64,000 nucleotides of DNA from Tetracentron sinense (taxonomy: Eukaryota; Streptophyta; Magnoliopsida; Trochodendrales; Trochodendraceae): contig CM026573.1 of the NCBI GenBank assembly GCA_015143295.1, positions 6,808,434 to 6,872,433 of the forward strand, read 5' to 3'. This document shows, one piece after another, positions 11,353 to 64,000 of the stretch. Positions within the stretch are counted from its first letter, which is position 1, and every line of letters starts with the position of its first letter. A program made the position numbers and the translations under genes. Under the pieces are notes generated by a model. The model worked only from the letters and a program-made list of their open reading frames with translations. It was not told where the DNA came from and searched no databases.

Positions 11353-13508
11353 TTAATGTCTCCGGGAAGTAGTGTGAATAGAACAATTAACCAACTTCAC
11401 AGCCTCTTCCGGTCCACTTTCCTTCTGTGATGTCCTAAATATAACATAAATCACAGACAGAAGTATACAGTTTTTCCTAGGAAATGGAACTAAAAGCTTC
11501 TAAACTTTTATACTCTCTTGTTTGATATAGGCAAGTGAACATCCCACTCTTGGGCGCATACAATATAGTTCAAAATATAAATTTTAATGAGCAATCACCT
11601 ATTGCTTCGCACAGCTTGCTCATAGCGCAGGTCCCACTTGTATATCGTATTTGGCCGTAGAAGCATTGGACAGGTTGGAGTTCCTACCTTCTTGGAACTC
11701 CATGGACCAAGATTTGCTATCATTATATGGGCAATACCAATCTACTTTAGTAGATCATATGGATGTAGAAAAAGCTTATGATTTTGATGAATTGGAAACA
11801 TCTTTTTAGAAAACGGGAGATGGTAGAAGGATTCCATTCACCACACATTCATAATTGTCTCATTGCATTTATTTTCTTTATAAAATTCAATAAAAATAGG
11901 GACAATGTTGAAATTGGGGGGAAAATGAAGGGAAATTTTAAAGCCGAAACATATACAAAATATGAAACAAATGTCAAAACTGTAAAGAACTGTCAAAAAC
12001 TGTTCCACTGAGCGTTGATGCTTTGAGAACTTCTACCTCTGCTTTCGCTGGAAGCAGGGTTCTTAATGGAGGCTTTTCTTCTTCTGGATTTTGCAAGGTG
12101 CTTCTAATTCTATTTGTGATATTGGGAAGAGAAGCAATGGAACAGTTTTAAGAAGACATTGCACAATTCTGAGGACTAGTTCCAGGAAAAGATAAATAAA
12201 ATGAAATATAATAAAGTAATGACCTTGTTCAAAATGTTGGCTGAATGAAAACTAGGCCAAATATGTTCTATAAAAGCCAATTTCTTGCCAATAGTGTAAC
12301 AATGTGACTGCAAATTACTAATATAAGTTGGTTACAGCTGCAGATTTTTTATTTTTACACAACAGGGTCTCTATCATACACATGACACTCGTCAAAATCA
12401 CCTCAGCTGGATGATCCTCACCACCCGATAAATGGACCTTTATCTTAACCATCGAACATATTTTGAGTAGTGTCATAAACAAAGCACCAGTAATCACCAG
12501 ATTTGGCTGACCTCCGGGCCTGGGGATTATTATGCAGGAATATTTAGTAATTTGAGGATCTGCGTCAGCATCTTACTGAATAAGCTAGAAAGCGAAAAGA
12601 AAAAGATAAAAACTCGAAACATAATAATTTTTTTGTAATAGTTTAGATAATGTAGAACATAATTTACACGAGTGTTTTCGAAGAAATCAACAGTTAAAGA
12701 GGAAAAAGGAAAGTTTGTTTGGTAGAACTTGTAAAAGTTATTGCATGTATAAACACCAGAGACCTAGATATCCATTTCTGATGGGTTGTTTAAAATTGGA
12801 AGCTTTCTTGCACATAAAGTGCTTACATTGCTGAAATGTCAACATGATCAAGGTGCTATCCATCTTGATGATGTTTTAAACCGTTTTATTATACATGTTG
12901 GATGGAGCAGTATCGATCCTTCTGCAGTGCTAGTACAGTTCTCTTGAATGACTCATGTATGATATCAACTAATACCCCCTGTAAAGTTCCAAGAACAAAC
13001 ACTCAAAGCCGGATCTTGTTCAATTATCGGATATCTCCAAAGACAATCTTGTTTCAATTATATCATATGGAAATGTGAACAGCTTCCAAACTGGTACGAC
13101 AGCCCCCTTTAGCCATCTGCATGACTGAGAAGGCATAAAACAATTGTAAGTAGGATGGTACCGAAGATGAAATGATGGAGAAGAGTAGATTCCATGAACA
13201 TCATCATGTATCTGATATAATTATGCTGTAATCACTCCCTTATTGCCATCAACGGGAAGCCAAAGTAACTGTTGACACATCACAGATGTGTGGTACTGGT
13301 GATACAAACTAGAAGTTTAGGAAACTATACATGTAAGAGGTTTTGTTAGATAAGGATATTGTGGTTGATTATGCACACAGTACCTATTCCACTCAAATAT
13401 CAAGCAATTGAAACCTGGTGCATCCAAAATCTGACCAAATTTGTCATATACCAACGCACGCCTCTTCAATAGTTGGAGCATATAGATATTATAAACAAAG
13501 GAGCTAAG
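11353..13508 (-). CDS. Unrecognised multi-exon protein gene, 5' end unresolved
   Basis: Seven minus-strand segments read as consecutive exons with compatible phases: 13508-13384, 13308-13236, 13116-13081, 12978-12895, 12519-12450, 11716-11599 and 11434-11353 (stop TAA). They join into about 195 residues with natural composition, for example LVYDKFGQILDAPGFNCLIF, then VLVDIIHESFKRTVLALQKD, then KSGDYWCFVYDTTQNMFD, then IYKWDLRYEQAVRSN. Donors are GTACTG, GTGATT, GTTCAC, GTATAA, GTTAAG and GTGATT, and each upstream acceptor ends in AG; the 36-bp third exon is the least certain. I do not recognise the family. No start codon is assigned; earlier exons may lie between 13510 and about 15060. It is convergent with the kinase gene. 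An aged pseudogene cannot be excluded. Confidence 0.6.
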
Positions 13509-15300: not shown

Positions 15301-16672
15301 ACTAGAATCTATATTGTTGTCATTGTTATTGCTAGGTTAGTTGGAATTTGAGTTACTCAAATCAATCAATCTAGTCCTTGGAATGAGTGGACTGCAGAGT
15401 AGTCTAACCGCGTGTCATGTACCAGGAAAAAAAAATTGCTTTATGAATCAATTGGGAGGAGTTTCTTGTGGGTGACTGGGTCTATTATGACCCTGGGTCG
15501 TCATTTGATTAAAATAAATAGAAAAATTGGAGATGGATATAGTTGAAAGGAATCTAGACCTTTTGATCCCTATACTATGAGGGAGATCAAAACCTCCTTG
15601 AACTAATAAAGGAGTGCTAAACATAGGCAAATTTTAAAAATTTTTCAAACTCTCATTGTACGTGCAACAACTGTTGTTGTTGCTCTTCAACAGATTAAGA
15701 AGACAAAAATTTCAAAGGAATTTATGGTTTATATCAGATCTCAAAATAATATGAAATATCACGGTGAGAGCTTGGAACTTTTTTGACACCGGTCCTCTAA
15801 TCTTTAGAGCTTAAAAAGTAAGGAACCCTCCTACCACTTATTACATTGGAGGTTTTAATTTCCCTCTACTTCTAAAATATTTAGACGTGCAACTGGAGGT
15901 TTATCAAACACCCTAAAGTCGTACAAGCTCTAATGCAAATAAGCTCTAATTATTATTTTATTTTTTTGTTTTTTTTGGTGATAAATACCTTACTTGGATC
16001 CAAGGGATTGTTCCCACTTCTCACCATGTGTATCACAATAATGGCCTCGTGGGGTGGGTATTTGGTTTCTAGATAGTTATCACCATCTATACGTTTTCGT
16101 ATTAAAGACGTGCACTGTATTCTTTGGAAATGGATTAAGATCTGGCAACCATCAAAATACATTCAACAGTTTGTATGGGAAGGATCAAATAGTCCTTTAC
16201 ATGTAGATCTCCCTCTACTCTATAATTACTCCAAAATCTGTTTATAATCTTATTCTCAAAACAACCTTTCTTTGATCTTGAATTCCCTCTTTTCTTTTTT
16301 TCCTGATTCTTTTATCAGCTACTATCTTTCTTTTGTTTGCTTTTCTCTGTTTTGTTAATAACTCGATTGTGTTCTTTTATTGGGATCTCTCAATCTCAAA
16401 TTCTCTTGGGTTTTTCTCAATTTCTGGATTGGGTTTTTCGTTTTTCTCGTTCTGGGTTGTTTTGATTTTCATCTCTTGTTCGTCCATTTCTTCTGGGGTG
16501 TTGACATTTTCAATCTTGATCTTGGGTTTCTCCTGTTCTTCCTCACTGTTTTTGAAGGCCATTTTTTTTTTCACTTGTTCTGTTATTCGCTGTTGGATAA
16601 CTTACTGTTCTTAATTTCTTGTTCAAATTTCTCGTTTGGGTTGCGATTTTCTCTGAATTTCGATTCAAGACA
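15301..16672 (+). promoter_or_regulatory. Spacer and probable promoter / leader of the 2H-type gene
   Basis: Stop-rich DNA to about 16200, then a pyrimidine-rich stretch (16250-16670) typical of a plant 5' leader. Open frames here on both strands (about 16333-16733) are low-complexity Phe/Leu or Lys/Glu strings and are not taken as genes. Confidence 0.3.
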
Positions 16673-17221
16673 ATGTCACAAGGCTACGCAGTTGAGCTTT
16701 ACTTCGATCCTGCGCTTGAAAACCAGGTCTTGAAGGCTTGGAACGTTCTTGCTCGTCGTCAGATCAGTACTCAGCTTATCGAGATCGAATCTCGACCACA
16801 CATTACCCTTCTCTCTAGTCCTCATCTGGATCCTGTCAAACTGGAACATGTTTTGAAGAATTTTGCTTCGAATCAAGAACCTATGCTTCTATCTCTCTCT
16901 TCCATTGGAAGTCTCCCAAATGACAATGTTCTCTTTCTTTCACCAACTCCTTCATTGTCACTACTTCAATTCCATTCTTATTTGTGTGATGCACTGAAGA
17001 AGGAGGGCATCGAAATTGGCGAGGAGTACTGCCCGGACTCATGGATTCCTTACTGCTCTGTTGCACAAGAAGTGCCTAAGACTCGGATGCCAGAAGCTTT
17101 CTGTATTTTACGAGACTTGAAGTTGCCTGTTACTGGGTATGCAATGGATATTGGATTAGTGGAATTTTCGCCTGTTCGTGAGGTCTTCTCGTTTGTGCTC
17201 GGAAATTCATCTGAAATATGA
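16673..17221 (+). CDS. 2H phosphoesterase / 2'-5' RNA ligase-like protein
   Basis: A single-exon gene of 182 residues. The first signature H-x-T (H43-I-T45 in RPHITLL) of the 2H superfamily is present in a YAVELYFDP...RRQIS context typical of plant members annotated as RNA ligase/cyclic nucleotide phosphodiesterase-like. The place expected for the second H-x-T/S reads WIPYCSVA, Tyr127 standing where the second catalytic histidine would be. Active 2H enzymes need both histidines to hydrolyse or transfer 2',3'-cyclic phosphates, so activity is doubtful. The in-frame ATG at 16619 would add 18 hydrophobic residues; the ATG at 16673 is chosen because it precedes the first conserved strand directly. 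No organelle signal is evident. Confidence 0.85.
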   Translation: MSQGYAVELYFDPALENQVLKAWNVLARRQISTQLIEIESRPHITLLSSPHLDPVKLEHVLKNFASNQEPMLLSLSSIGSLPNDNVLFLSPTPSLSLLQFHSYLCDALKKEGIEIGEEYCPDSWIPYCSVAQEVPKTRMPEAFCILRDLKLPVTGYAMDIGLVEFSPVREVFSFVLGNSSEI

Positions 17222-18595: not shown

Positions 18596-20131
18596 ATCAC
18601 GTATGAACTACAATTGTTCATTATTATCATCAATGTCTTATCCCAATTATTAGGTGTCGCAACACGAATCTTGTTTCACAATTCCATTCTACTAAAAGCC
18701 ATGATTTTGGTCAAATTTTGTGCTATCAAATCTTTTGTTGTATCGCCATCCACTTAATTTTTTGCCTTCCTTTGTCTTTTTAGAGCCTTCAACTTGAACC
18801 AACTTACTTCTCACAGGTGTTGTCATTGGTCCTCGTTGAATGTGTTCAAACCATGTCAATCAACTCTCCCTTATTTTATCACCAATTCGAGCTACTCCCT
18901 GATTCTCTCCAATGTGTTTATTCCGTCTCAATAAAACTAATTCAATTAATATTTTATACCCTGAGTGCCCAACATTCAGTTCCATAAAGTACAGTTGGTC
19001 TTATGTTGTCTTTTAAAATGTTCCTTTTAGTTAGATTGGAACGCGTCTGTCACATAGGCCATAGCACTCTAGAAGCAAATCTCCACTCTAGCAACCCAGT
19101 TCTAATTCCATGAGCATCATCGTCCTCAAGCTCTCCATTCTTACTAAAGTTGCATCGTTATGTTTTATCTTTGTCCGATTTAAACCTCTTAGATTCAAGG
19201 TATCGTTCCACAATTCTAGTTTTGCATTTACCCCTTCTTTATTTTGTTAAATCATACCACGCCATCTACAAATAAAATACACCACTAATATGAGATATCA
19301 ATGTAAAAAGCTACAGGTTCATATCAACTATTACTATTGGGCATCTTTTTCTTATCCTTTGGTAATGATGTTGAGCTTGGTGCAACAATGCATGCTGTTT
19401 TCTTTTTTCTTTTGTATATGTGTGTGTTTGTGTTTGTGGGTGTGTGCTGAGACAAAGGGGATTGGGGGTTGGGAAAACCTTGTTTCTAAAATAATTGTGT
19501 TCCCTCACAGAAGAATGCACTATAGATGTGTGATTAGTTTCTGTGATGAGGTGTTTTGAGGTGACGGGTTGATGGGAGAAACTGGATAGTAGCTCTACAC
19601 ATCATTTCAACTCTTGATTGAATGATGCCAGGGAAAATGTATTAATGTGATAGTTTATTATCTGTACATATGTACAGATTAAAATCACTGAGAAATTGAG
19701 GCAAGGTTAGATTCTTCTTTATTCTATTCGTTCTGCAATGACTGTATCTTTTGCTATGTTATTGGTCATATAGCATAGTCTAGAGCGCCAAAACATCATG
19801 TTCAAAGTAATGAATTCAAGGAATTATCATGGTCGTTAGATATTACACTTGGTCTACTTGTCCTAGCATCTTTAGATTGTGTAGGTGTTGGACTGAAAAG
19901 TCTTGCCTGGTACTTATTTGACCAAAAGATGTCCACTCTGTTTCTACCCAGTGAATGATTGGAATGGAATAGATCTTGATGGTACTGGTAGCAGGCTAGC
20001 AGCCAAGGATATCTCCAATACCTTGAGTCAGAGGTGTTTTTTTAGTGTAATGGAGGTGAGTTGGGATTTTCTTTACAGGCTGTTAATGGGCTAGGCTAAG
20101 CTCTGCCAGAGCCCAGCCTGAGAACTAAGCA
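18596..20131. other. Intergenic, no gene seen
   Basis: Stop-rich spacer. The overlapping open frames at 19290-19559 contain a TGTGTG-rich stretch and show no recognisable protein. No element ends were found. Confidence 0.45.
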
Positions 20132-25409: not shown

Positions 25410-26777
25410 TCATCCTCCTCTCCTAGATTGAGCATGCCATCTCTTCACCACCTCTAACATTATCTCATTCCAGGTATCGATAGGCCCCGGTAAGCACCAA
25501 TGAACACAATCATTCGGTACACGCTCCGTAACCCCATTAGCAAATGGAAATGGATACATATAAGGTCCAGGGTGACCGTCCGGTCTCATCGACGATAATT
25601 TGGTCACGTCCAACACCTCTAACCTCAATCCAGTACTGAATTGGGTAGCCTTGATCTTCGCCGCCTCCACCTCCTCTACCTCTATATTTCTCATCTCTAA
25701 ATCCATTCCCTCCAGTAGCTTCTCTCCCTCCATGAATGGCTTCTTCTTCGGACAGGCGCCCGCCTTGTCCCAATCCCCTTGGAAGTGTGAAGGAGAAAAT
25801 GTAGTCACAATTACATCAATTTCACTACTTCCATGCTTCTTCTCAACTATGGCCTTAAGGGTAGTCTTAAAAGCCTTCCTGAATATATCATAGAAGCCAA
25901 TCTCAGTGTGATTAAGACCTGGACAGTAATGGCATCCTAGTACTGAATCTTCCTCGAAATATACCGCCGGGTGGAGGAACCAATGCCCAACTGATAGGAC
26001 AATCATATCCATCTCACCCATATCTGATGCCCATTTCTCGTCCACGAGATCCAAGTACAATCTGTTATAATTGAGACCAGTGTTTGATTTTTCGATTCCT
26101 TTTACTAGAAATGGTGACCAATAGATTGAAATATGAATGTTATAAGAAGGAAAGTACCATCGTCGGAACTTGTTATCGTCCCCATTTTGATAAATGAGAT
26201 CAGGGGGAGAGACAGTTGCTAGTAGGCAAAGGAGAGACTCCAATTGATTCCTAGCCATGGAATCACCTACAAAAGCCAAGTGTTTGTTCTGAAACAGCCT
26301 AAGAAAGGTCGCGGGTTCGAACCTTGGAAGCTTGCATTGCTTAGGCTTCCACCTCCAATAGAGGTAACCCATGTCAGGTCTACCATGGCTGATGCAATTC
26401 TGTCCCTCCTTGATTGTACCGCAACTCGTGCCATTGTATAGAGGCCCGGACTTGTCGCGTACCCATTTGCCATTGGTGGTGTAGTCACATGGAATTCTGT
26501 TAAACCTATCATCTTCTGCAAACGAAAACAAATGTAATTAAAACAAACATTATATATAAGAATGCTTATGTTGATGAATGTACGTACCTTGAGAGGATGA
26601 GGAAGTGATGATGATGGGCTTGTTTTGAGGAACTTGATGCAGAAGAGATTGAGTTAGGGGGAGAGGATAGAAATATAAGCGAAGGAGAGCTAAGGAAAGG
26701 AGAGCATAAAGGGACCATGGTAGGAGCTTTGTTGTGAGAGAGTGAGGTTGGTCTTTCAATGGGTGTATTGTACCCAT
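25410..26777 (-). CDS. TBL family polysaccharide O-acetyltransferase
   Basis: Two exons, 26777-26588 and 26515-25410, with a 72-bp GT-AG intron in phase 1, give 431 residues. A hydrophobic stretch at about residues 18-40 looks like a type II signal anchor, placing the protein in the Golgi with its catalytic part in the lumen. The TBL domain starts at CDYTTNGKWV (73-82), the GDS motif with the nucleophile serine is at 147-149, and the DxxH motif (D399, H402 in DCVHWCLPG) closes the active site. All are intact. Family members acetylate cell-wall polysaccharides. The GCHYCPG...HTEIGFYDI block resembles the TBL25/26/27 (AXY4) group linked to xyloglucan acetylation, judged from memory; the substrate is therefore an inference. 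Confidence 0.93.
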
Positions 26778-35476: not shown

Positions 35477-38400
35477 CTATTGCCATGAGTGTTGCTTGAA
35501 GCTAAACCTCTGTGCATCCCACCCTCCATCTGGCTCCTTCCTCTTCAACACCCCGCCTGCCGCCTGGCACATCCTTGCTTGCTCCTCTGTTAGGGCCTGC
35601 GAACTGGAAACAGGGAGTTGCCTCATTGCCGACGGCAACCTCTCATCTCTCCCTTCTATATCCATACCTCCTGGACCTGTATTGAGATCAAGACCCTGCC
35701 TTCCCCATCTCCTACTGCTCTCAGCACCACTAATACCGGAACTATCTGATAGGCTTATAACATAGGGCCTTGGGTAGTGGGACGAGACTCCGCCAGCAGG
35801 TCCTACTAGCTGTGAAGGAATGGCAGGGAAGCAAAGTGCCCCACCAGATGAAGAATCCATATATGTTGTTATACCACCTGAAAAAGAGGTTGATGGCGGA
35901 GGGAAACTGGATCCAAAAGGGAACACGGAATATTGAAATGGGGTAGCAGGAGGAAAAGCCACAGCGGGAGAGGAGGATAGCACTGCTCCTCGGTAGACAT
36001 CAGGACTAAAGTTGGAGCCACCAGAGGGTCCCAAGATCCTTTGTGCCCCGGCAGTGGCAACAATTGGATAAGGCTGCTCCCCTCTATCAGGCAAGATTGA
36101 GGGGATTGTGATCGCTGAATAGGAGTTCCCTGGAGGGAACCACGACGAGAGATTTCCTAGTTCCGTATTGCTCGATCTGAGGCCGGCAACAGGTGGCATG
36201 AACGGCACACTGCTTCTCACATGCTGACTGCGAGGTGCTGGTTCAATGCCCGCCTCATCGAGGCTAGGTCCATTGTTCAAATCAAAGTTCCTTAGAACAT
36301 TCACCTCACCTTTAGGAAATCCACCAGATGATGATGACCTACCTGGCACAAGAGGGACTTCCCATCTATGACTGGTGCTCGCTGAGAACTGCCCAATATC
36401 AGTTCCTTCATCAATTCTGTTCAAATCGAGACCAAGTCCTCCAACATTACGAACAGCTGCAAGAGAAGAACCAAACATTTCACTGGGTGCCATCCTTGGA
36501 TTATTAATGGGTGGCCCAGATTCAGAACCTGTCACCTGAGCAGAGCTCTCAACAGCCAAGTCCTCAAAAACTCTCTCATCCGGCACATTCAGGTCAATAT
36601 CCAAAGGGGGACGAACTTGTTTGCCAACAGTTGTATCAGGAAGAGGGATATCAGTTGCACTGAGTTGCATCTCCAGAACCTTTCTAGGTTCAGCAGGCCG
36701 GAACGCACTGGTAGCAGCAGATCCTTTCCATCCAAGTTCCCCTTTAATCCTCAATAAGTTTTCAGGAGGAACAAATGGCCCTTTTGCAGCAGCAGCAACT
36801 GTAATTGAAGCAGGAAGACCACCGGACATGGAAGAAACAGGAAAAGGCAATGTGCTAGGCAGATGAATAGCGGATAAACATCCAGGTGCAGTTGAGTTAA
36901 CTGGCTCCCCTTGGTTCCCATCATCAACAGGGAAGCCTTCGTTCAAATCGAAGTCCAACTTTGCAGCCATCTCTGATCCTGCTGCAACAGATAACGAAGA
37001 AGCATCTGCAGAGGACACACATTCCTCTGACTCATCTGCTTTAACGCCAATCAATTTAGATCCACTAGACTTCAGGCATTCTTCAATTTCTTGCACAGGA
37101 ATTAAGGATGACTCTTCGTGAGGAGCTGGACCACCAGAACTGCACTCAAGAACCTCTTTTCTTTCTAAATTTTGCCCAACTCCTTTACTGTCGTGATCTG
37201 AAACAGCTGAACCTAAACCAGCCACAACTACATCGTCGATACTTAGAGTACTATTACTTGCCTGCTTTATGCCTTGTTTTCCACTCTGCTCAACATGATT
37301 CCTTGGCTCCAAGTCATCAGCCTTTTCAGACCTAAAAGCATCAATATTTTTTTGGCCCATAACATTACCAGAAGGTCCAGAACCAGAGAGCAGAACAGCA
37401 TCCTCACCACTTCTCTCTACGGATTCCGAGAGAATCAACGCAACAGGAAGTGTTTGCTCTGTTAACATACCACTGCTCAGCCGTTCATGCAGAATACTCT
37501 TGTTCTCGCCATTCATTTCCAAAGATGGGCATGATGGTGATTCTTCAACAGCTTCCATTTCGGCTTTTACGCTAGAAACGGCATTGTCAATATTATCACA
37601 CACATCGCCTACGGAACCATTAACGATGTCAGATGCTGCTGCCACACTGCTCTCCGCAATCTTTTCACCTGCATGTTCAAACTTCTTATTTTCATCAAAC
37701 AAGGGAGTCCTTATCTTTGGTTTAAAATCTGGGACAACGGCACCATTCACCTCGGTAACACCTGACGTCCTCTTCTCACGAATTTGGTTAGCTCCTTCAC
37801 CCTCTTCTCCTGTGTCTGTGGGGCACAAAGCCACAGAAAGAGCAACTGTGTCATCAGGTTTCCCATCATGTTTCAAGCATGGTTCTGCAGTTTGTTGCAA
37901 ATCCATAATGGAAGGAAACAGATTTTTGCTGTCCTCTCCTACTGGTTTCTCTTCGGAGAAGGATGAGGTGGTTTTAATGCCTACAGAAAAGTTGGTTGAC
38001 AAATGTGTAGTGAGATGTTGTAATCCATCCTTCACCCGTAAAGGACCAACAAAATCACCCTGCTTCTCCGGAACACCATCAGCACCGTTGTCAGGATGAC
38101 CTTGGTTTTGAGCAACAACATCCTCAGGTGATGAATTCAACTTGGCATCGGTGCAAGAGTCCTCCGGTAAAGGTGAGTTTCTCCCAGGAGAACCAATTGG
38201 TGAAACCAAATCAGATTTGGACATTTCTCCAGCAGCCACACTAGCAAGCAGGTTCATTCCAATATCATCACCAACTGACATTGAAACACTAGCTTCCGAG
38301 CATTTGACACAGCTATCAATCAAAGCATTTATGGAGCTGAAAGAAGCCTCGTATGATTTCGCTGACTTGAATTCAATTCCTGATGATGAGAATGTAGCTT

Positions 38401-41400
38401 TTGATGCTTCTGTTGTCTTCCCATCCTCATCAGCAGTCTTGCAACGTTCTTCTTCAAGAACAGCAGCAGGTGACCCGTCGCCTTCATCAGAAGCAGCCAA
38501 TCCATCTTTGACATCATTGCTTTGCCATGATTCTGTTTTCACATCTGATGTAATATTAGCCCGATAAACATCATTCATTCCTTTTACTTTCCGATCATGG
38601 TGATCATGCTTCTCAGATAGTCCAGGAGAAGAAGCTCTGCTACCAATGATGGAAGGATCTTCAAATGACCCTCCACTGGCACTTCGTGCAGGACTGCGGC
38701 CAGGATTTGGAAGCCTAACGATTAATCTGTGACTATTTCCGTGATCTACAAGGGGCATATCAAGTGCTCTTTCACTAGTCAATCCAGACCCAGACTGTGA
38801 TGCTTTATCAGAAGTCATATTCCTGTTGAAGGAACTACATTTGCCCATCCCAGTTTCCTTTTGAATTCCAGAGACAACTGACCCGACAAACCCATTGCTT
38901 GATTTCCGATGGCGAAAAGCACCACTAGAGATCTTATTGACACTCAATGAACCAGCAGTGGAGCTCCTCGCATCCTCCTTCCAAGAAGAATCCACCGTTT
39001 TGGCATGATCACTTGAACAAGATTGACTATTGTTCTGAGATTGACTAGAACTGCTGCTCTTCTCCTCTCCTATTGTTGTTGGAGGCAGATCTGTTGTGCC
39101 ACTACCAACTACGCTTTTGAAATCTGGATCCTTTGACTTAATACCCACTGATGCAGGCAATGAAGCCGACAACTTAGTAGACCCAGGAGATGCAGATGTG
39201 GACTTGGGAATAGCTTCCTCATGGTCAAGCTTAACAGGTACAGTTTTAAATGCAGAAGGTTGTGTAATGGAGCTCTTATTGGGAAGCTCAGAGGATCCAA
39301 CATTGCGTCTATTCCCTCCCTGAGAAACTTCAGAAAGACCTGGCTTGGTAGGCCATGAAACAGCCTGACTTGACCCAGACTTTGCATCGTTTATCTTCAG
39401 TTCAGCTTCAACACGTTTCTTCCATGTGTCAACTAAACTCCTAGCTTTTTTCTGAATTTCCAAGTTTTTATGACTTCGCAAATTATTCACAGATTTCCCA
39501 ACATGACAAGTCTGTAGGGCATGAAGATTCACAGGCAGCTTATCAAGTGCACGAAGTAAAGCCAAGAGGAATTCCTCAATCAATTTATCACTTTCCTTGG
39601 GGCTACTACCATGGCCAGGTTTCCCTTTATGCACCTCTTGGAGCCAATCATCCAACACCGGCAAACCCCTGAGCTGCACAAACCGGCCAAGGCAATCAAA
39701 CCTATCTGTGGCTGCTATCACATCTGCAAACATAATCCGTCCAGCCAAGTCTATTTTCTTCCCAGCTCTGTCAGGTTGAATGAGTTGCACCAGTTTATCA
39801 ACCCCTTCAAAGTCTACAAGCCCTCCATTATCTGTTATTTTGGCAATCTCAGAATTTAACATGCTTTCTGGTCTGAAGTGACCAGAATCCCCATCATCTG
39901 TTTTTGATGCACGTTCTTGTTTGACAGGATCAGAGCCCTGCTCGGTCCGCTCCCTCTTCTTTCCCTTGACTTGACAAGGAAAGGAGGAGGCAGTATTCGG
40001 GGCACTATCTGAACCAGGCTTTAACTGCGGTGTTGACGCCGGACCATTCAATGGTTTTGGAGAACGGCCTCCAGACTGCACTGCCGCCTGCATTTCTAAT
40101 CGTGTTTTGTCTAATAGTTGATTTACTTCTTCTTGTCGTTCCTGTAGATAAAAGATAAAAGTTGAGAATTGTGAATCTAGAAAATAAAAATGAACCACGG
40201 GTCCACAATGCTAGGAAGGACTATTGCATACTAACATTGATATAATCTTGATCAGTTAGCCACCATAAACGCTTGCTTGCAATGTCATATACTCGCCTGC
40301 ACACAAATGACGATATCCCTGAAGGAAGTTCAATCCCTTTACGAAGGAATGCGACTTTACAGGGATGTAGTAACGATGCACCAGGTATCTCATCCCTGTG
40401 AAACGAATAAAAGACTTCGTTTGGTGCGGCTTCCAGCAAGATGCCTTTGCCAAGCTTTACTTCAGCAGGTCGGTAAAGCCAATTCACACCTAACTTTAGA
40501 TTATCCTCTTTGCCTGATGTTAACCAGCTGATTATTCCAATGAAAGGTGGGGACTCCTGGGGCGGCTTGAAAAGTGCGCAGTCACCAACACTAATCTTGC
40601 GTCCATCCTATGAAACAAGAGAAACTTCAGCGAAAAATAAAACAAGTAAATGAGATGATGATGAAAAACAATACTAGATCACGCTTTCACCACTAATAAA
40701 CATAATAGATGATTGGCATGGAAATATATAGATACTTGGGTTGCAGAGAAATGATTGACTAGATAATCAATAGAAGTATTTCTATGATCTTTCAAAGGTC
40801 AAAGTAAAACTACCATTACGATTCTCCGATTGACACTCGAAAGCATTGCTTTTTTATCGGTACGATGAGAATATATAGGCTAAAAAAGGGGGGAAATACA
40901 AAAAACAATACATGAATAAAAGCCAGCTAAAAACACCAAAACAGTACGTAAAGGGAGGCTTTAAAAAGCGTATAAGTCTATGAAGCAAAACTATTGAGGG
41001 GCTACATCAATAAGCAGGCTATCTCTGGAAACTCCCTCAGGCGCCAACAGGTCGGCAATCATGTTCACCAACCTTGGGATCCATGAGAACAAGATGTTCT
41101 TATGAGATGCAAGGTCACAAATATCTATGATGTTATACGCATATCTTCAAGGTCCCGTTGAACCATTGGCCCAGGAAATGGCATTCCTTGATTCTCATTC
41201 AAGGATGATGGAAGGAAGGTCTAAAGGAGCCACTGAGAGACCTTGCTGCAGTGATAGAATCTCGGCATGGTTGGAGGTGGCGTCACTGATTGGACCCATG
41301 TACCAATGAAATGATTTCCCCTCACTCCCTCTAATAATTCATCCAACCTCAGCTGGGCTTAGATTTCCCAAAGAACTCTAGTTAGTTAATCTTAAAGGAG

Positions 41401-56129: not shown

Positions 56130-56423
56130 GTAGAGGGTCTCGACTCTTATTAGGCTAATTACCAACTAAGTACCCCCAAAGGAAAAAAATTGTACTTGCT
56201 TAAACTCCCTCATGGAATGTCCAACCCTTTGATGATCATGTATCAAAGTTACTAGGGAGAAATTGATCTGGAGGACGATCCAACGGAAGTGAACATATCA
56301 CCTGTAAGCGTATGTTATATTGGTACTACGTGCTGTACTAAATCATTGAACATATTATAGTTTGAGAGACCAGAGAGAGCAGGCTCTGTTTGAGTCCCTG
56401 TTACACTCGCAGGAGCAGCCGCC

Positions 56424-56999
56424 ATGGCCATGGATGCGAGCAACGGCGAGGAATTTACAGTGGGTTGCTTTCTCTCCATTAAAACCACTTTAGGGGGTGA
56501 GTTCGAAGGTCAGATTATAACCTTCGACAGACCTTCTAACATTCTTGTTCTTCATATCCATTTTGAGTTTTGTCTCCATTACTTGTTTGCTTTTCTTCTA
56601 GAAATCTTCATTTCTATAGCTATTTTGTTCAAATCATATTTGAATTCCTTAACTAAGTTAGATTAGCACAAGAGGGCTCAAAAGCAGGACCTCGACGAAA
56701 CCTACGCCTTTTGAAGGTGAACTATATAAAGGAATTCACCCTCTTGGGCAAAGATGAAGATCCACTCGATCTCAACAATTTTTACCTTGATCTTAATAGT
56801 CTTCATGCTAGGGAGGAATCTGCTATAAGGTGATGAAATTTGGAGCAGACCCCATATGCCAATTTTACTTATTTTTTAATTTTTCGTTTATATGATGTTT
56901 TGATTATATGAATTGCAGACAAGCAGAGATAGATGCTGAGAGGATAGGTGTCGGAGTTACGACTGAGGCCCAGAGCATATTTGATGCGTTATCTAAGAC
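56424..56999 (+). CDS. LSM12: LSM12 homologue, N-terminal exons, 3' part not found
   Basis: Exons 56424-56553, 56670-56829 and 56919-56999 give a continuous frame: VGCFLSIKTTLGGEFEGQII and TFDRPSNILVLQEG form the LSm domain; then LRLLKVNYIKEFTLLGKDED and the RQAEIDAERIGVGVT...AQSIFDALSKT start of the AD domain. The family links an LSm fold to an anticodon-binding-like domain and binds RNA or RNA-binding partners. Intron 1 (56554-56669, 116 bp) begins ATATCC and ends AC with TTCCTTAAC 17 bases before its end: a U12-type AT-AC intron; a GT-AG reading does not keep the frame. Exon 3 ends at a normal donor (AC|GTAAAT), yet the last third (about 65 residues) is not found in the following 7 kb. Either a very long intron or a truncated gene. 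Confidence 0.85.
56554..56669 (+). other. U12-type AT-AC intron of the LSM12 homologue
   Basis: 5' site ATATCCATT (consensus ATATCCTTT, one mismatch), branch-site TTCCTTAAC at 56645-56653 identical to the U12 consensus, terminal AC at 56668-56669. Joining 56553 to 56670 restores ...LVL-Q-EGSKAG with the glutamine codon split C|AA. Length 116 bp. Confidence 0.88.
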
Positions 57000-57001
57000 G
57001 T

Positions 57002-58490
57002 AAATCGTTTACCCTCTTTATCACTTATTTTGATTTTATGAAATTTCAATTTGCTCTTTGTCCATTGCAGTGCACTTTTTATTTTTTTCTGAACATCAGA
57101 GCAAATATATAAAATTTCACATTTTTTGACTTATGATGTTTTGCTCCTTAATATTGGAATGCTCAATTTGTATCATATGTATGGCGCATTTTGATCATTG
57201 CCACATGGCACATTGACGGCAGCTCAGATGCCATCTAAAAAACACGTGGTAGCATCAAAGTATGTAGCAGATTCCCACATGGACTTGGAATGGATGTAGC
57301 AAGTTTCCACATGGTGGCATCAAATTGTTATGGTTGTAGCAGGTTCTAATGACTTTGTGGAGTGGTTGCTCCATCCCCATTCTTGAATGACATGGGTCAG
57401 GATGATGGCATCCTAGAGGGCTACTGACATCTTGGACTACAACTCTTGGCATTCACGAGACGGCTGATCCTTGGAAAGGGAAGTCAAGTATGGGTGGGCC
57501 TTCTTCCCAAGAGAGCCGGTAAGAGCTGGATGGTGGGGCTCGGTTTAAGTGGCGTGACGAGAACACGTCCAGTGAGGACAATGGCATCCCACTTGGGCTA
57601 CTGATGCCCTATAAGTGCGGCTCGTTGCCCTGGGTTGAGGCCATCATCAAGGTAGTGGTCTTGCATGCTTTCGTACTATCTAGATGCATTGCCGCTACTG
57701 GAACATGGCTATAGATGTCATCCCTAGAATGACTTGGCATTGCCTTTGTCAACCTACTTAGAGAATTGGAAACACAAGGGAAGGGCTGCCATTGATGTGG
57801 CGTCCTGGATCACTGCTTGCTAAAGTGGTGTGTAATTGTGTCGTGGGGTCAGAAGGTGGTTAGTTGCAAGAGTTTGTTAATGATTTGTCCAATGGTTGAG
57901 TGCTACAATTTAGTAACTGAATGATGTCACAATTAGTCGGTGACAACATTTTATTCTCACGTGGGTGGTTACTGATGTGCACATATGGGAAGTTATAGGA
58001 CACGCGATGTCACAAGTCCCCTTTGTCTTTGTCATGAAAAATTATAAATAGCGAACTCCCCTATTAGAACAGGATTCAGATTCTAGTCATCTTCAACCTT
58101 TGAGCTCCCCTCAATACCTAAACCCTAAAACAGCAATGCCTAAAACCTATGTCAATTCCAAACCCTAAAACAATAGCATTCCATAACCCTAACCCCTATA
58201 CAACCCTTTTAAACCTCAAGAAAGGTTAGAAAATCTGCATTGAATTAAGAGCTAATTCCTAAGCTTTTGGAATCCATACAACCCTCACAAATACAAATGA
58301 GGGTCGTATTGTAGGTTTGTGACATGACCTTGAATCTTTATAAAATTGCTTTATTGAATTTTCTTGGATAATTATTTGAGGTAGGATTGCTATTTTATGA
58401 TTTTCCTAGTTCTTGTTAATCCAATCTTGATCTTAGCAGTTAGCACACTAGATTTTAGGCCATTGCATAGTCCTACATCAAAAAGGTTCT
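57002..58490. other. No gene seen; probable transposon-derived sequence
   Basis: Follows the last LSM12 donor. It contains repeated GTAGCA(G/A)RTTYCACATGG words (57247-57345) and a stretch with several CCTAAACCCTAAAAC words (58120-58190) as in retrotransposon leaders. No LSM12 exon and no other coding is recognised. Confidence 0.35.
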
Positions 58491-58504
58491 ACGGGGTCTT
58501 TCAA

Positions 58505-59320
58505 AAATAGCTCATGAACTTCATGTCTTTATCTGAAACAATCGTTTTTGGAACTCCATGCAAACATACCACCTCCTTGAAGAACAACTTGGCTATCCTC
58601 AAAGCATCAGACATATTGTTACATGGAATGAAATGTGCCATTTTAGCAAACCTATCAACGACGATATATTGGAATTGTACTCCTCATGGCCTTTGGTAGC
58701 CCCAAAATGAAATTCATGCTTAAATCTTGCCATGGTTCGTGGAGTATGGCGGCGGTGTGTAAAGACCAATGTTGTGCTTCTTTCCTTTAACTAGTTGGCA
58801 TGTAGACACTGCTGTAATATCTGGGAAACATCATGCTTCAGACTCGGCTTGGAGTGATTTTTAACCATAACTGTAGTCTTATCCTTTCTAAAGAGACCTC
58901 TGGCATGGAATTTCCATATAACACACTCTCGAAGAGACGTACCAGACAAACATAAACATGTCCCTCGAAATAAGTAGCCACCATGCACACAATACTTTGG
59001 ATGGTCAACTTGTTCTCCAACATTGGTGTCGACGTAAATTGTGCTAAATCTTTGTCCACATCATGGTCCCGCTTCACTCTCTCGAACAGAATGACTTCCA
59101 TGGCCATAGAAACCAGCATGTGACTTTGTCTACTCAAGACATCAGCAGCCTTATTTTCTACCCCCGCTCGGTGCTTAAGAAAAAGAAAAACTCTTGCAAA
59201 TAAGCACTCCACATGGTATGTCGAGGATTCAACTTTCTTTGGGAGTCTAAGCACTTCAATGCCTCGGCCAACCACAAAATAGGAAAACTGTACTTGATGC
59301 TGAGCTTATTTATGGCATGA
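58505..59320 (-). pseudogene. Ty3-type retrotransposon pol relic (RNase H to integrase)
   Basis: In minus-strand order: an RNase H end (ALKCLDSQRKLNPRHTMW, about 59300-59200), then after a frameshift KHRAGVENKAADVLSRQ with the linker leading to integrase, then an integrase-core piece [19 protein letters not shown] and [16 protein letters not shown] (58700-58510) followed by a stop. Much of the zinc-binding and core region is missing or scrambled. The order and motifs are those of Ty3-type plant elements. Confidence 0.85.
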
Positions 59321-59449
59321 ATATCCACGCACTTGAGGTGTGGAAATGTATAGGAGAAGCTCTTAATAGGATGAAGATAAGATAGGCTTTGTGATATTCC
59401 ACTTGAAGTGTGGAAATGTGTAGGATAAGCTAGCACATCCTATCTTATG

Positions 59450-59790
59450 AGGTTGTTTAATAATATTTTGAAGAAAATTGAGGAAGCATGGAGGAAAAGT
59501 ATTGTGGTACATATCTACAAGAATAAATGAGATTTTCATTATTGTACCAATTATCGTGGAATCAAACTCATGAGTCAAATTATGAAGTGTTGCTTCATGG
59601 GACGTACGTTCGCAATCCCCCTCCCAGAACAAAGACTAATACAAGTAACTAGGGTTTCAGAAGATCAGTTTGGATTCATGTCGGAGAGGTCAACTATTGA
59701 GAGGCTATCTTCTTACTTGGACACTTGATGGAGAAGTTTAGGGTGAAAGAGATCTCCATATGGTATTTAGAGACTTAGATAAAGTTAATA
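59450..59790 (+). pseudogene. LINE reverse-transcriptase relic
   Basis: The plus-strand frame has EAWRKSIVVHIYKNK, CTNYRGIKLMSQIMK and EDQFGFMSERSTIE, the early reverse-transcriptase blocks of plant LINEs (IYKNKGD, NYRGI, QFGFMPGRST). It is broken by in-frame stops and a shift, and ends before the catalytic YADD block. Confidence 0.85.
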
Positions 59791-60170
59791 TGGACATGAA
59801 ATATGTGGGGAGACTGCTAAAAGTGCTTTTGAGGAGAGTAAATCAACCTCCTTTTGTGAGAGGGAGATTTTCAGCTGGCTAAACTTTTGTCAAACCTGTC
59901 TACCACAGTGCCCACACAGATTCTCATGCACTTAGTTGGTGGTAGATGGATGTTAACCTAATTGCTCATTATGTATAAAGTTAATAGGGACATGAAATAT
60001 GTGGGGAGACTGCTAAAAGTGATTTTGAGGAGTGTCAATCTCCCGTTTGTGAGTTTGAGAGATTTCCATCGTGCTAACCTTTTGTCAAACCATTCTGCCA
60101 CTGGGCCTAAGCATATTTTTAATGCACTTAGTTGGTGGTAGATAGATGTTACCTTAATGCTCATGATTAC
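59785..60170. repeat. Tandem duplication, two copies of about 195 bp
   Basis: 59785-59965 and 59980-60170 both run from AAAGTTAATANGGACATGAA through GGGGAGACTGCTAAAAGTG and TTTTGTCAAACC to CACTTAGTTGGTGGTAGAT. Confidence 0.85.
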
Positions 60171-60182
60171 ATCTCTTGTATA

Positions 60183-60417
60183 TGTTGAATATTGTTTTGG
60201 CCTATTGTACCTTTATGGTATAGTAGACCTTTGGGTGTTACTATGGTAGAGTATAATGTAGTAATGACATACTTGTACTATTCATTTCTAGATTTTAAGT
60301 ATATAATTTAATGAATGAGAGAGAATAGTTAATCTCTCTATTATTTCTTTTCTCCTTCTTCCTCTTCTCCTTCTTCCTTCTTTCAAACCCTAACCTTAAA
60401 CTAAACTAATCAAGTCA
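60183..60417 (+). mobile_element. Ty1/copia-type 5' LTR, putative
   Basis: Starts TGTTGAATATTG and ends AATCAAGTCA three bases before a primer-binding site. The length of about 235 bp and the CT-rich end fit a copia LTR. The other LTR is outside the window, so the ends are inferred. Confidence 0.5.
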
Positions 60418-60420
60418 ACT

Positions 60421-60432
60421 TGGTATGAGAGC
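60421..60432 (+). other. Retrotransposon primer-binding site (initiator tRNA-Met)
   Basis: TGGTATGAGAGC differs at one base from TGGTATCAGAGC, the usual plant copia site complementary to tRNA-iMet. Its place right after the LTR end supports it. Confidence 0.65.
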
Positions 60433-60767
60433 ATCTCAAGATCTAAGGGGCCATACGACGAAGGTATGGATAACGTAGCTTTTTCTCCCATCTAATGAGC
60501 CTTGATGTGTAGGGATTTATAGTATTGATTTCAGATTTTTTTTTTTTTTTTGAGGCATGGAGATGGGAGTTTTGTGAAATTAGTTGGTTGTGTTTGATCC
60601 GTATGAGAATTTCAAAGATTTTGGGGAGGTCTCATGTTGATTGGTGGAATATTGAAGCTCTGATAAGAATTTACTAACTAGTTATCATGAAAAAATGTTT
60701 TTTGGATTGTTTGATGATTTTTTTTTAATGGCAATGTGCATGAGAAATGGTATTTGGTCTCTCTTGA

Positions 60768-60965
60768 AGGTGATGTGTAAGTTGGGTGCCCTCCAAGTGT
60801 TTGACAAAAGTTGCGTGAAGTTGGAAATGTTGTTTTGGACTCTCTAAGTGTTTGAAAAAATATGTGTGAAGTGAAAACTGTTCCATGAAGGTGATGTGCA
60901 AGTTGGGTGCCCTCCAAGTGTTTGATGAAAGTCATGAGAAGTTGGAAATGTTGTTTTGGGTTGTG
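60768..60965. repeat. Direct repeat in the copia leader, about 121-bp step
   Basis: 60768-60842 and 60889-60963 share GAAGGTGATGTG, AAGTTGGGTGCCCTCCAAGT and GAAGTTGGAAATGTTGTTTT. They lie between the primer-binding site and gag. Confidence 0.8.
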
Positions 60966-61071
60966 TAAACCCTTTGTGTGAAGTTGAAAGTATTGATTTG
61001 GGTTGTTATGTATTCATTTGTGGTGATAGTTTAAGGACTTGATTTGTGTAAATCAGTCCCTTTGTGGTGCA

Positions 61072-61200
61072 ATGGGTGATTTGGAAGTGAGTCAAGACTC
61101 TTCTAACCCTGAGGCTAGAGGTGGGCAAGTGCACCTTGGACACGGGGATGCCCCAAATGTGCAAATTACTACCATTAAGTTGAATGACAACAATTTCTTG
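61072..61200 (+). pseudogene. Copia gag, N-terminal part
   Basis: Reads MGDLEVSQDSSNP... to ITTIKLNDNNFL, the start of a plant copia gag with the KLNxxNFLxW signature cut after NNFL. The missing continuation appears 1.7 kb further on, at 62906. Confidence 0.75.
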
Positions 61201-61202
61201 GT

Positions 61203-62905
61203 ATGTTATCTCGTATTTTGGATTTCCAAATCCCTATTCTGGTGCTATCCCCCTCTATGTGTTTGTTTCCCATTCCTCCCAAAGTGTTTAGGTGCGTGTG
61301 CTTCGTTCATATCGCTCGTTCTGACCGTATAAAGTTTGATCCTAATGCTCTCAAGTGTGTATTCTTTGGGCCTACTTCAAGTCAGAAGGGCTACCGATGT
61401 TATCATCCTTCTTTTCGTCGGGTATGTCTCTATGGATGTGATTTTTTTAAAAAAATTTATATCAATAAGACATGTATTAATCAAAGAAGAGTTACAAAAA
61501 GAGTTTACAACAATGTAAACCCGGAAATGACTAAAGAGGATACAAACCAAGCAAGAGGGAAACCCAAAAACAGCATAAAGGTCCTATGTATTAAGGGAGT
61601 TGTGATGGTACTCCAGGATGTGACATTCTTTGAGTCCATTTCTTTTTATTCAGACTGGAAGACCTCTCTTCAGTGGGCGAGTATCAGTGAAGAGATGTTT
61701 TTTGAGTTTCCTTTGCCAGTTCTAGCTTCAATGCCTCCTGATAGTGATAGTGCTAGACAGGGGGAAATTGTTCATACTTTGAAGGTATATGAAAGAAAGA
61801 AGAAAGATAGTAAAGAAGACCCTCATACTTCCTTCCAAGAAGTCTCCTCTAATCCATCGGTTAAAGGTAATGTCCCTCATTCTAATCCTGGGTTAATTGA
61901 TGATTCTTCCCGTCCTATTGCTCTAAGGAAGGGTGTTCGTTCTTGTGCTCATCCTATCTCTAACTTTGTCTCATATTCGGTTTTATCTCATTCGTATTGC
62001 TTTTTTGCCGTCTTTATCTTTTGTGTCTATTCCTCGCAGTGTAACAGATGCTCTATCTCAGCCAAAGTGGTGAGAGGTAATGGAAGAGGAGACGCAGGCT
62101 CTTGAAAAGAGTGGCACTTGAGATGTTGTTGAGCTTCCTAGAGGAAAAAGATCAGTGAGCTACAAGTGGATCTTTACTGTAAAGCATCTTTCAGATGACT
62201 CAATTGATAGGTATAAAGCAAGCCTTGTTGCCAAGGGATACACCCAGACCCATGGTATAGACTACCAAGAGATCTTTGCTCCTGTAGCCAAGATGAACTC
62301 TATAAGAGTGTTGTTGTCCCTGTTGCCAACCAAGATTGGCCTCTATTCCAAGTTGATATGAAGAATGTCTTTCTACATGGTGACTTGAAAGAAGAGGTGT
62401 ACATGACACCTCCTTGCTTTATGAGTTCCTCAACCAAGGGGAGAGTGTGCAAGCTAAGGAAAATAGTTTATGCCTTGAAGCAGTCTCCTAGAGCTTGGTT
62501 TAAGAAATTTTGCACTGCCATGTTGAGAATGGCTACAAGTAGAGCCAAACATACCACACATTATATATCAAGCATTCTCACCAGAAAGTTACTATCCTTA
62601 TTTTGTATGTGGATGACATTGTGGTGACCGGGAATGACTATGGTAAAATGGGAAAGCTAAAGAGTAAGTTGGCAACAGAATTTGAGATCAAAGATTTGGG
62701 CCATCTGAAGTACTTTTTAGGGATGAAAGTTGCCAGATCAAAGGAAGGTATCTTTGTCTCTCAGAGAAAGTATGTGTTGGACTTACTTGAGGAGACCGAG
62801 ATGATGGGTTGTAAATCGAGTGACACCCCTATTGATGTGAACCACAAGAGTGGGGAACGTCTTTCAAATACAGGGAGGTACCAGAGACTTGTAGGGTGCC
62901 TAATT
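61203..62905 (+). pseudogene. Ty1/copia pol fragment (integrase end to reverse transcriptase)
   Basis: Starts inside the integrase C-terminal part (RILDFQIPILVL, IPPKVFRCVCFVH, KFDPNALKCVFFG, QKGYRCYHP) and continues into the RVT_2-type reverse transcriptase: SYKWIFTVKH, YKASLVAKGYTQTHGIDYQE, FAPVAKMNSIRVLLS, YALKQSPRAWFKKF, YVDD (62606-62617), LGHLKYFLGMKVA and TGRYQRLVGCLIF, where it stops before RNase H. Frames shift several times and a 174-bp insertion lies at 61442-61615. It cannot make a full polyprotein. Confidence 0.9.
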
Positions 62906-63735
62906 TTCTTGCGTGGCAATGCTCGGTTGAGCTTTATATTGGGGGTCACTCTAAGATGGGGTATCCTGATCGTAAGACCCCACAGTCAGAGACAGGTATT
63001 GTTGAAATTGCTAAGTGGAAGGCAGAAAATTGCATTATTTTGGGCTAGTTGTTTAATTCCATGGAGCCTCAGATTATTGGGAATTATTATTTTTTTTATA
63101 AAGATTGTCATGAACTTTGGGAGACTCTTATTTAGACTTATGTCCTAGTAGAGAATGATGCTCAAATTTATCAACTTACTCGTGAGATTGCTCACTTTCA
63201 ACAAGGGAATATGTCTATTTCAGATTAATTTGGGGCTCTTTAGCGTCGTTGGGAAGAATTGAACCATTATGAGCCTCTTTTTGAACTATATGTTATTTCT
63301 GCCAAGATTATGACGAAGTGAATTGAGCGTCACCGCATTTATGATTTCTTATGAGGTCTTTAGGCTGAATTTGAGCAGTTGCGCACTTTGATTCTTGCCA
63401 CATCTCCTTTGTCATCTCTTCGATCTGTGTACTCCACTGTGTTTGATGAGGAATTCCGTCGAGTTGTTATGTCTTCGAGTACCACTCCTATGCCCCTTCT
63501 GGATTGTACCGCCTTTGCTACTGATTTTCGTCCTGCTACTGGCCGTGGTAGGGGGACTAATAGGGGTCGTTGTGGTCGTGGTAGACCTACTCCTTGTAGT
63601 CACTTTGGTATAGTGGGACACGATTGTGATCATTGTTATCGTTTGCATGGCTATCCCAAGGGTTACCAGCCTCGTCCTGACTACGAGGAAGATTGTTGGA
63701 AGAGGAGTGGAAAGAGATGGACTTTACTACCTTGA
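62906..63735 (+). pseudogene. Copia gag, continued, with knuckle-like end
   Basis: Resumes with FLAWQCSVELYIGG and KMGYLDRKTPQSETGIVEIA, KWKAENCI, NSMEPQIIGNYYFF, ENDAQIYQLTREIAHFQQGN, in several frames with stops, then an open stretch 63379-63735 ending in an Arg/Gly-rich part and CSHFGIVGHDCDHCYRLHGY. This last is a copia gag zinc-knuckle region with the second Cys changed to Phe. It continues the gag begun at 61072. Confidence 0.85.
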
Positions 63736-63819
63736 CACTGATTATGCTCCTCATCGAGTCTCCTCTACTGTTGCTACTGTTTCTATTTTTCCTTTTTCTG
63801 TCGATGCTACTCTTGATAC

Positions 63820-64000
63820 TTATCATTTATAGCATGTCAAGCTTGGGCATATTGAATCTAAGACTTTATGTTATTTGATTTCTACTTTTTATAAACTTTG
63901 TTCTTCATCTACTTTTCAATGTGATACTTGTCAGCTTACTAAATATGTCCGTACTGTTTATACATCTCGGATGCATAGATGTTCCATTTTTCAGTTAGTT
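63820..64000 (+). pseudogene. Copia pre-integrase region, runs off the window
   Basis: A frame from about 63830 reads HVKLGHIESKTLCYLI and STFQCDTCQLTKYVR, the GAG-pre-integrase H...H...CDxC signature of copia elements. It lies in the expected order after gag, but with protease sequence largely lost. Confidence 0.75.

Follow-up and report, generated by a model that had tools for sequence, protein, structure and literature searches.

How are the first two coding exons of an LSM12 gene of Tetracentron sinense joined to each other, and is the stretch between them removed by the major or by the minor spliceosome? The question was addressed with the window, that is, the whole stretch of 64 kb of DNA in which the gene was noticed. 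The stretch at 56554-56669 is very probably a U12-type AT-AC intron, which would be removed by the minor spliceosome and would be intron 1 of the plant's LSM12 gene. This reading, which was also the original prediction, is supported by the LSM12_LSM and AD domains of the product and the fit to them, by the signals at the 5' splice site and the branch site, by the uniqueness of the junction and by the phase 1 position.

The LSM12 gene and its surroundings

The exons and the second intron of the gene are as follows:

56430..56553, plus strand: LSM12 exon 1, coding part, ending ...CTTGTTCTTC, with an alternative in-frame ATG at 56424
56670..56829, plus strand: LSM12 exon 2, which joins exon 1 across intron 1
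56830..56918, plus strand: intron 2, an ordinary GT-AG intron of 89 bases by direct reading
56919..56999, plus strand: LSM12 exon 3, in which the AD domain begins, with a GTAAAT donor after it

All three exons are open; exon 1 is preceded by an in-frame stop at 56391, and the Pfam match to LSM12_LSM begins at residue 7. The spliced product matches LSM12_LSM (PF21166) with 51.3 bits (cut-off 29.5) and, after it, AD (PF09793) with 37.5 bits (cut-off 23.4). An LSM12-type LSM domain followed by an AD domain is the layout of LSM12, and the two scores bear out the name that had been given to the gene before any database was searched. The AD match is partial, covering positions 3-44 of 90, because the later exons are missing. 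A sequence comparison of the product with the Protein Data Bank (E up to 1) found no match, and the search for relatives of the protein gave 76 pattern matches in viral_contigs and 152 in genome_contigs, 0 of which were confirmed in either set. The Arabidopsis LSM12 is presumably AT1G24050. This locus is listed among those of RNA post-transcriptional processing (PMC4714525).

Elsewhere in the window, the minus strand carries a gene with PMR5N and PC-Esterase domains (25413-26537), which we take to be of the trichome birefringence-like kind, and a very long open frame of 1577 codons (35477-40607) with a BAH-domain stretch before it (40224-40607, 51.1 bits), presumably resembling SUO-like plant BAH proteins. 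On the plus strand, a 2'-5' RNA ligase superfamily domain is found at 16601-17218 (48.5 bits), and a copia-type reverse transcriptase fragment lies 3' of LSM12 exon 3 at 62543-63145 (RVT_2, 69.0 bits). The PMR5N/PC-Esterase gene and the copia-type reverse transcriptase are plant-like content. The comparison of the 64-kb window with Rfam gave 0 matches at the gathering score.

Splice signals of intron 1

The features of the predicted intron are:

56554..56669, plus strand: predicted U12-type AT-AC intron 1, 116 bases, phase 1, 27.6% G+C
56554..56561, plus strand: 5' splice site ATATCCAT (consensus ATATCCTT), with a mismatch at +7
56645..56653, plus strand: branch site TTCCTTAAC, with A56652 or A56651 as the candidate branch A
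56667..56669, plus strand: preferred 3' splice site CAC/AAG, 17-18 bases past the branch A, with the top LSM12_LSM score among 17 models
56664..56666, plus strand: alternative in-frame acceptor TAG, giving an AT-AG intron of 113 bases and one additional proline, 14-15 bases past the branch A

Direct reading of the DNA confirmed the coordinates, the AT-AC termini and the ATATCC start of the intron. The donor agrees with the consensus in seven of eight bases, with an A at +7 in place of T, and the branch site is an exact match to TTCCTTRAY, a degenerate form of the U12 branch-site consensus. The original prediction had placed a perfect branch site 17 bases before the 3' end; the perfect match stands, and the distance was imprecise, being 17 bases from A56652, 18 bases from A56651 and 16 bases from the last base of the motif. 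The U12 5' consensus is published as ATATCCTT together with a distance of 10-15 bases from the end of the branch motif to the junction (PMC2426677), and 11-13 bases from the branch A to the acceptor are given as the optimum (PMC3584512; PMC6717393). The mismatch at +7 and both distances thus count against the AT-AC reading.

The intron ends with TTAGCAC, and the CAC at 56667-56669 holds the first AC 3' of the branch motif. By eye, the bases before the acceptor lack a distinct polypyrimidine tract (56654-56669 read TAAGTTAGATTAGCAC); a pyrimidine tract within the intron is located further upstream, before 56601. The intron interrupts the gene at about codon 42 and splits as C/AA (phase 1) the CAA codon that encodes the glutamine of LVLQEG, and joining of exons 1 and 2 yields ...FDRPSNILVLQEGSKAGPRRN... 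and the protein sequence LVL-Q-EG. Published biases of minor introns are towards phase 1 and towards a 5' location (PMC10639083; PMC2426677).

Junction uniqueness and chance expectation

The exact LSM12 mRNA can be obtained by only three cuts, i.e., CA-CA, AT-AC and TA-CA, and AT-AC is the only known splice class among them; the predicted C/AA join is upheld. The AT and AC termini sit exactly at the position at which the exons are joined, as is characteristic of a U12 AT-AC intron, and this cut has both the donor motif and the branch motif. With a plain base-composition model, ATATCC falls on any of the three mRNA-equivalent junctions with a probability of about 1e-3, and TTCCTTRAY on any of its 12 allowed places with a probability of about 3e-4; the product of the two, if they are independent, is about 3e-7. 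These values are a rough guide, because the T content of the intron is higher than that of the window and because the motif and its range were fixed post hoc.

The trio of ATATCC, TTCCTTRAY without mismatch and a YAC that follows the branch A by 9-20 bases (at an intron length of 60-400 bases) occurs at a single place on both strands of the window, namely at intron 1. In 300 dinucleotide-preserving shuffles, the mean number of such places was 0.11, and 26 of the 300 contained at least one. The trio by itself is therefore only modestly rare over 64 kb, which counts against the AT-AC reading, and it was rejected as a standalone proof; the case is convincing because the trio falls exactly on a coding junction, not because it is rare. 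When one mismatch in the branch site was allowed, three places were found, i.e., intron 1 and two on the minus strand, versus 2.5 expected by shuffling. The two minus-strand places (approximately 19807-20012 and 13299-13359) combine the full ATATCCTT with a YAC end and a branch-like site that deviates at one base, and are within the chance expectation.

Competing joins and alternative explanations

Joins were enumerated for donors that begin at 56441-56660, next exons that begin no later than 56719 and introns of at least 40 bases. This yielded 25 GT-AG, 12 GC-AG, 26 AT-AC, 37 AT-AG and 43 AT-AA pairs that are in frame and free of stops. The Pfam scoring covered 17 models, namely three of the 26 AT-AC pairs, three of the 37 AT-AG pairs, ten of the 25 GT-AG pairs (all seven with a donor at or after 56547 and three of the 18 whose donors lie further upstream) and retention; GC-AG and AT-AA pairs were left out. 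The AT-AC intron 56554-56669 had the highest LSM12_LSM score of all 17, i.e., 51.3 bits. The AT-AC pair 56560-56669, the donor of which lacks the U12 motif, reached 49.2 bits, and the pair 56554-56690 reached 36.8 bits. AT-AG introns ending at 56666, 56657 and 56672 gave 47.5, 46.0 and 46.1 bits, respectively, the ten GT-AG models 11.7 to 43.2 bits, and retention of intron 1 gave 37.1 bits.

It had been stated for this locus that the GT-AG rules allow no in-frame join of the exons. This is wrong as written: a GT-AG junction that restores the frame was looked for, and 25 such pairs exist. Nevertheless, it is extremely unlikely that a U2-type GT-AG intron with other borders removes the stretch at 56554-56669, because the ten pairs that were scored fit the LSM domain more poorly than the AT-AC join; the enumerated GT-AG products have residues deleted or inserted near the junction. 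A pair with a strong-looking donor and acceptor is the following:

56497..56601, plus strand: possible cryptic U2-type pair, donor GGGGTGAGT in exon 1 and acceptor TTTTCTTCTAG in intron 1

Its GTGAGT donor (GT at 56497) and its pyrimidine-rich TCTAG acceptor (ending at 56601) would speak for major splicing, but joining them leads to an early stop; the pair may come into use where minor splicing fails. A closer competitor is the TAG at 56664-56666, which could be used, alone or in a mixture, with the same U12 donor and branch site, so that a proline would precede the glutamine. It lies three bases upstream of the preferred acceptor and keeps the frame, its distance from the branch A is nearer to the optimum of 11-13 bases (PMC3584512), and it reaches 47.5 bits. 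The gap of 3.8 bits in favour of AT-AC is not decisive alone; in addition, AT-AG terminal combinations appear to be disfavoured, according to a review (PMC3584512). Use of this acceptor is very unlikely, in a mixed form it overlaps with the AT-AC reading, and the distance of 14-15 bases together with the preserved frame makes a mixed TAG/CAC acceptor possible.

The locus could also be a decaying or truncated LSM12 copy in which the apparent intron 1 is no longer spliced. In line with this, only the first three exons are recognised in the window, and an exon for the C-terminal second half of AD was not recognised in 57000-64000 by open-frame reading and a loose word search; moreover, the copia-type reverse transcriptase is found at about 62.5-63.1 kb. 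Either intron 3 would be longer than 7 kb with the copia-type element inside it, or the gene is truncated. Long introns that hold retroelements are, however, common in plants, and the window ends at 64000. Furthermore, three open exons, GT-AG ends of intron 2 and domain scores above the Pfam cut-offs argue against decay, which is very unlikely, even more so than use of the TAG. The AT-AC intron 56554-56669 thus remains the preferred reading.

Proposed mechanism

It is established for minor splicing that the donor is read by U11 and U6atac, and the branch site by U12. At this locus, U11 and then U6atac would pair with the ATATCC donor, and U12 would pair with TTCCTTAAC, with either A of this motif bulged out to act as the branch point. 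The CAC at 56667-56669, as the first AC beyond the branch motif, would be used as the acceptor, and exon joining would restore the glutamine in the LVLQEG of the LSM domain. The splice signals, the reading frame and the agreement with the LSM domain are shown by the sequence; from them we infer that intron 1 is spliced, which machinery is involved, and any regulatory role. On retention of the intron, translation would continue for 37 codons after LVL, as far as the TAG at 56664, and intron 1 could therefore be an on/off or a rate-limiting step. In human cells, depletion of CENATAC led to more retention or to the use of alternative major sites for 92% of the A-type minor introns (PMC8280824). 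Such a response might be carried over to Tetracentron sinense, by analogy with the human cells from which it is known.

Relation to known minor introns and LSM12 genes

AT-AC introns had been called a small minority of the minor introns, which is too strong for plants, as their share of the U12 introns is 26% for Arabidopsis, 22% for rice, 23% for soybean and 13% for maize (PMC7367187, Table 2). They account for about 0.06% of the plant splice-site pairs on average (PMC6310983). Thus, AT-AC introns are rare among all introns and make up about one-fourth to one-eighth of the minor class. The LSM12 intron shares with the plant U12 AT-AC introns the ATATCC donor, the TTCCTTAAC branch site, the AC acceptor, phase 1 and a 5' location in the coding region; it differs from them in the A for T at +7, in its spacing of 17-18 rather than 11-13 bases, and in the in-frame TAG acceptor three bases upstream, which, with its more favourable distance, also weighs against the AT-AC reading.

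U12-type introns have been published for human LSM12 (intron 4) and for Drosophila CG15735/lsm12a (intron 1), both of them GT-AG (PMC2831892), and the Drosophila gene is also contained in PMC2952598. Flies without the minor-splicing factor Miso retain minor introns, the one of lsm12a among them, and the level of the Lsm12a protein is reduced (PMC12084885). The plant and metazoan genes belong to one family and are alike in that each has a (in the plant, predicted) U12-type intron, whereas the metazoan introns are GT-AG and that of Tetracentron sinense is predicted to be AT-AC. The human intron is the fourth, and the plant intron is the first, at about codon 42; judged by these ordinal numbers, the two positions are probably not the same. 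Among the matches listed in a limited body of open-licence literature, supplementary tables aside, no statement on a U12 intron in a plant LSM12 gene was found; the text seen of PMC3695525, PMC8002431 and PMC12898128 names LSM12 and plants and mentions no U12 intron in LSM12. A plant U12 survey may well list the intron already.

Implications

The first intron of LSM12 is a sound call and an ordinary member of the well-known AT-AC class of U12 introns, and knowledge of minor splicing is unchanged by it. It should be noted that a gene finder that accepts only GT-AG could mis-call genes of this kind; at this locus, the in-frame GT-AG alternatives would yield a plausible but damaged LSM domain. 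The plant case now stands beside the minor introns in the human and fly LSM12 genes. If plants have an AT-AC first intron in the LSM domain and animals have GT-AG introns at a different position (intron 4 in human), one might tentatively speculate that control of one RNA-binding protein by the minor spliceosome was kept or acquired independently in the two lineages, and that the tandem TAG-CAC of Tetracentron sinense may give rise to Q and PQ variants of the LSM domain.
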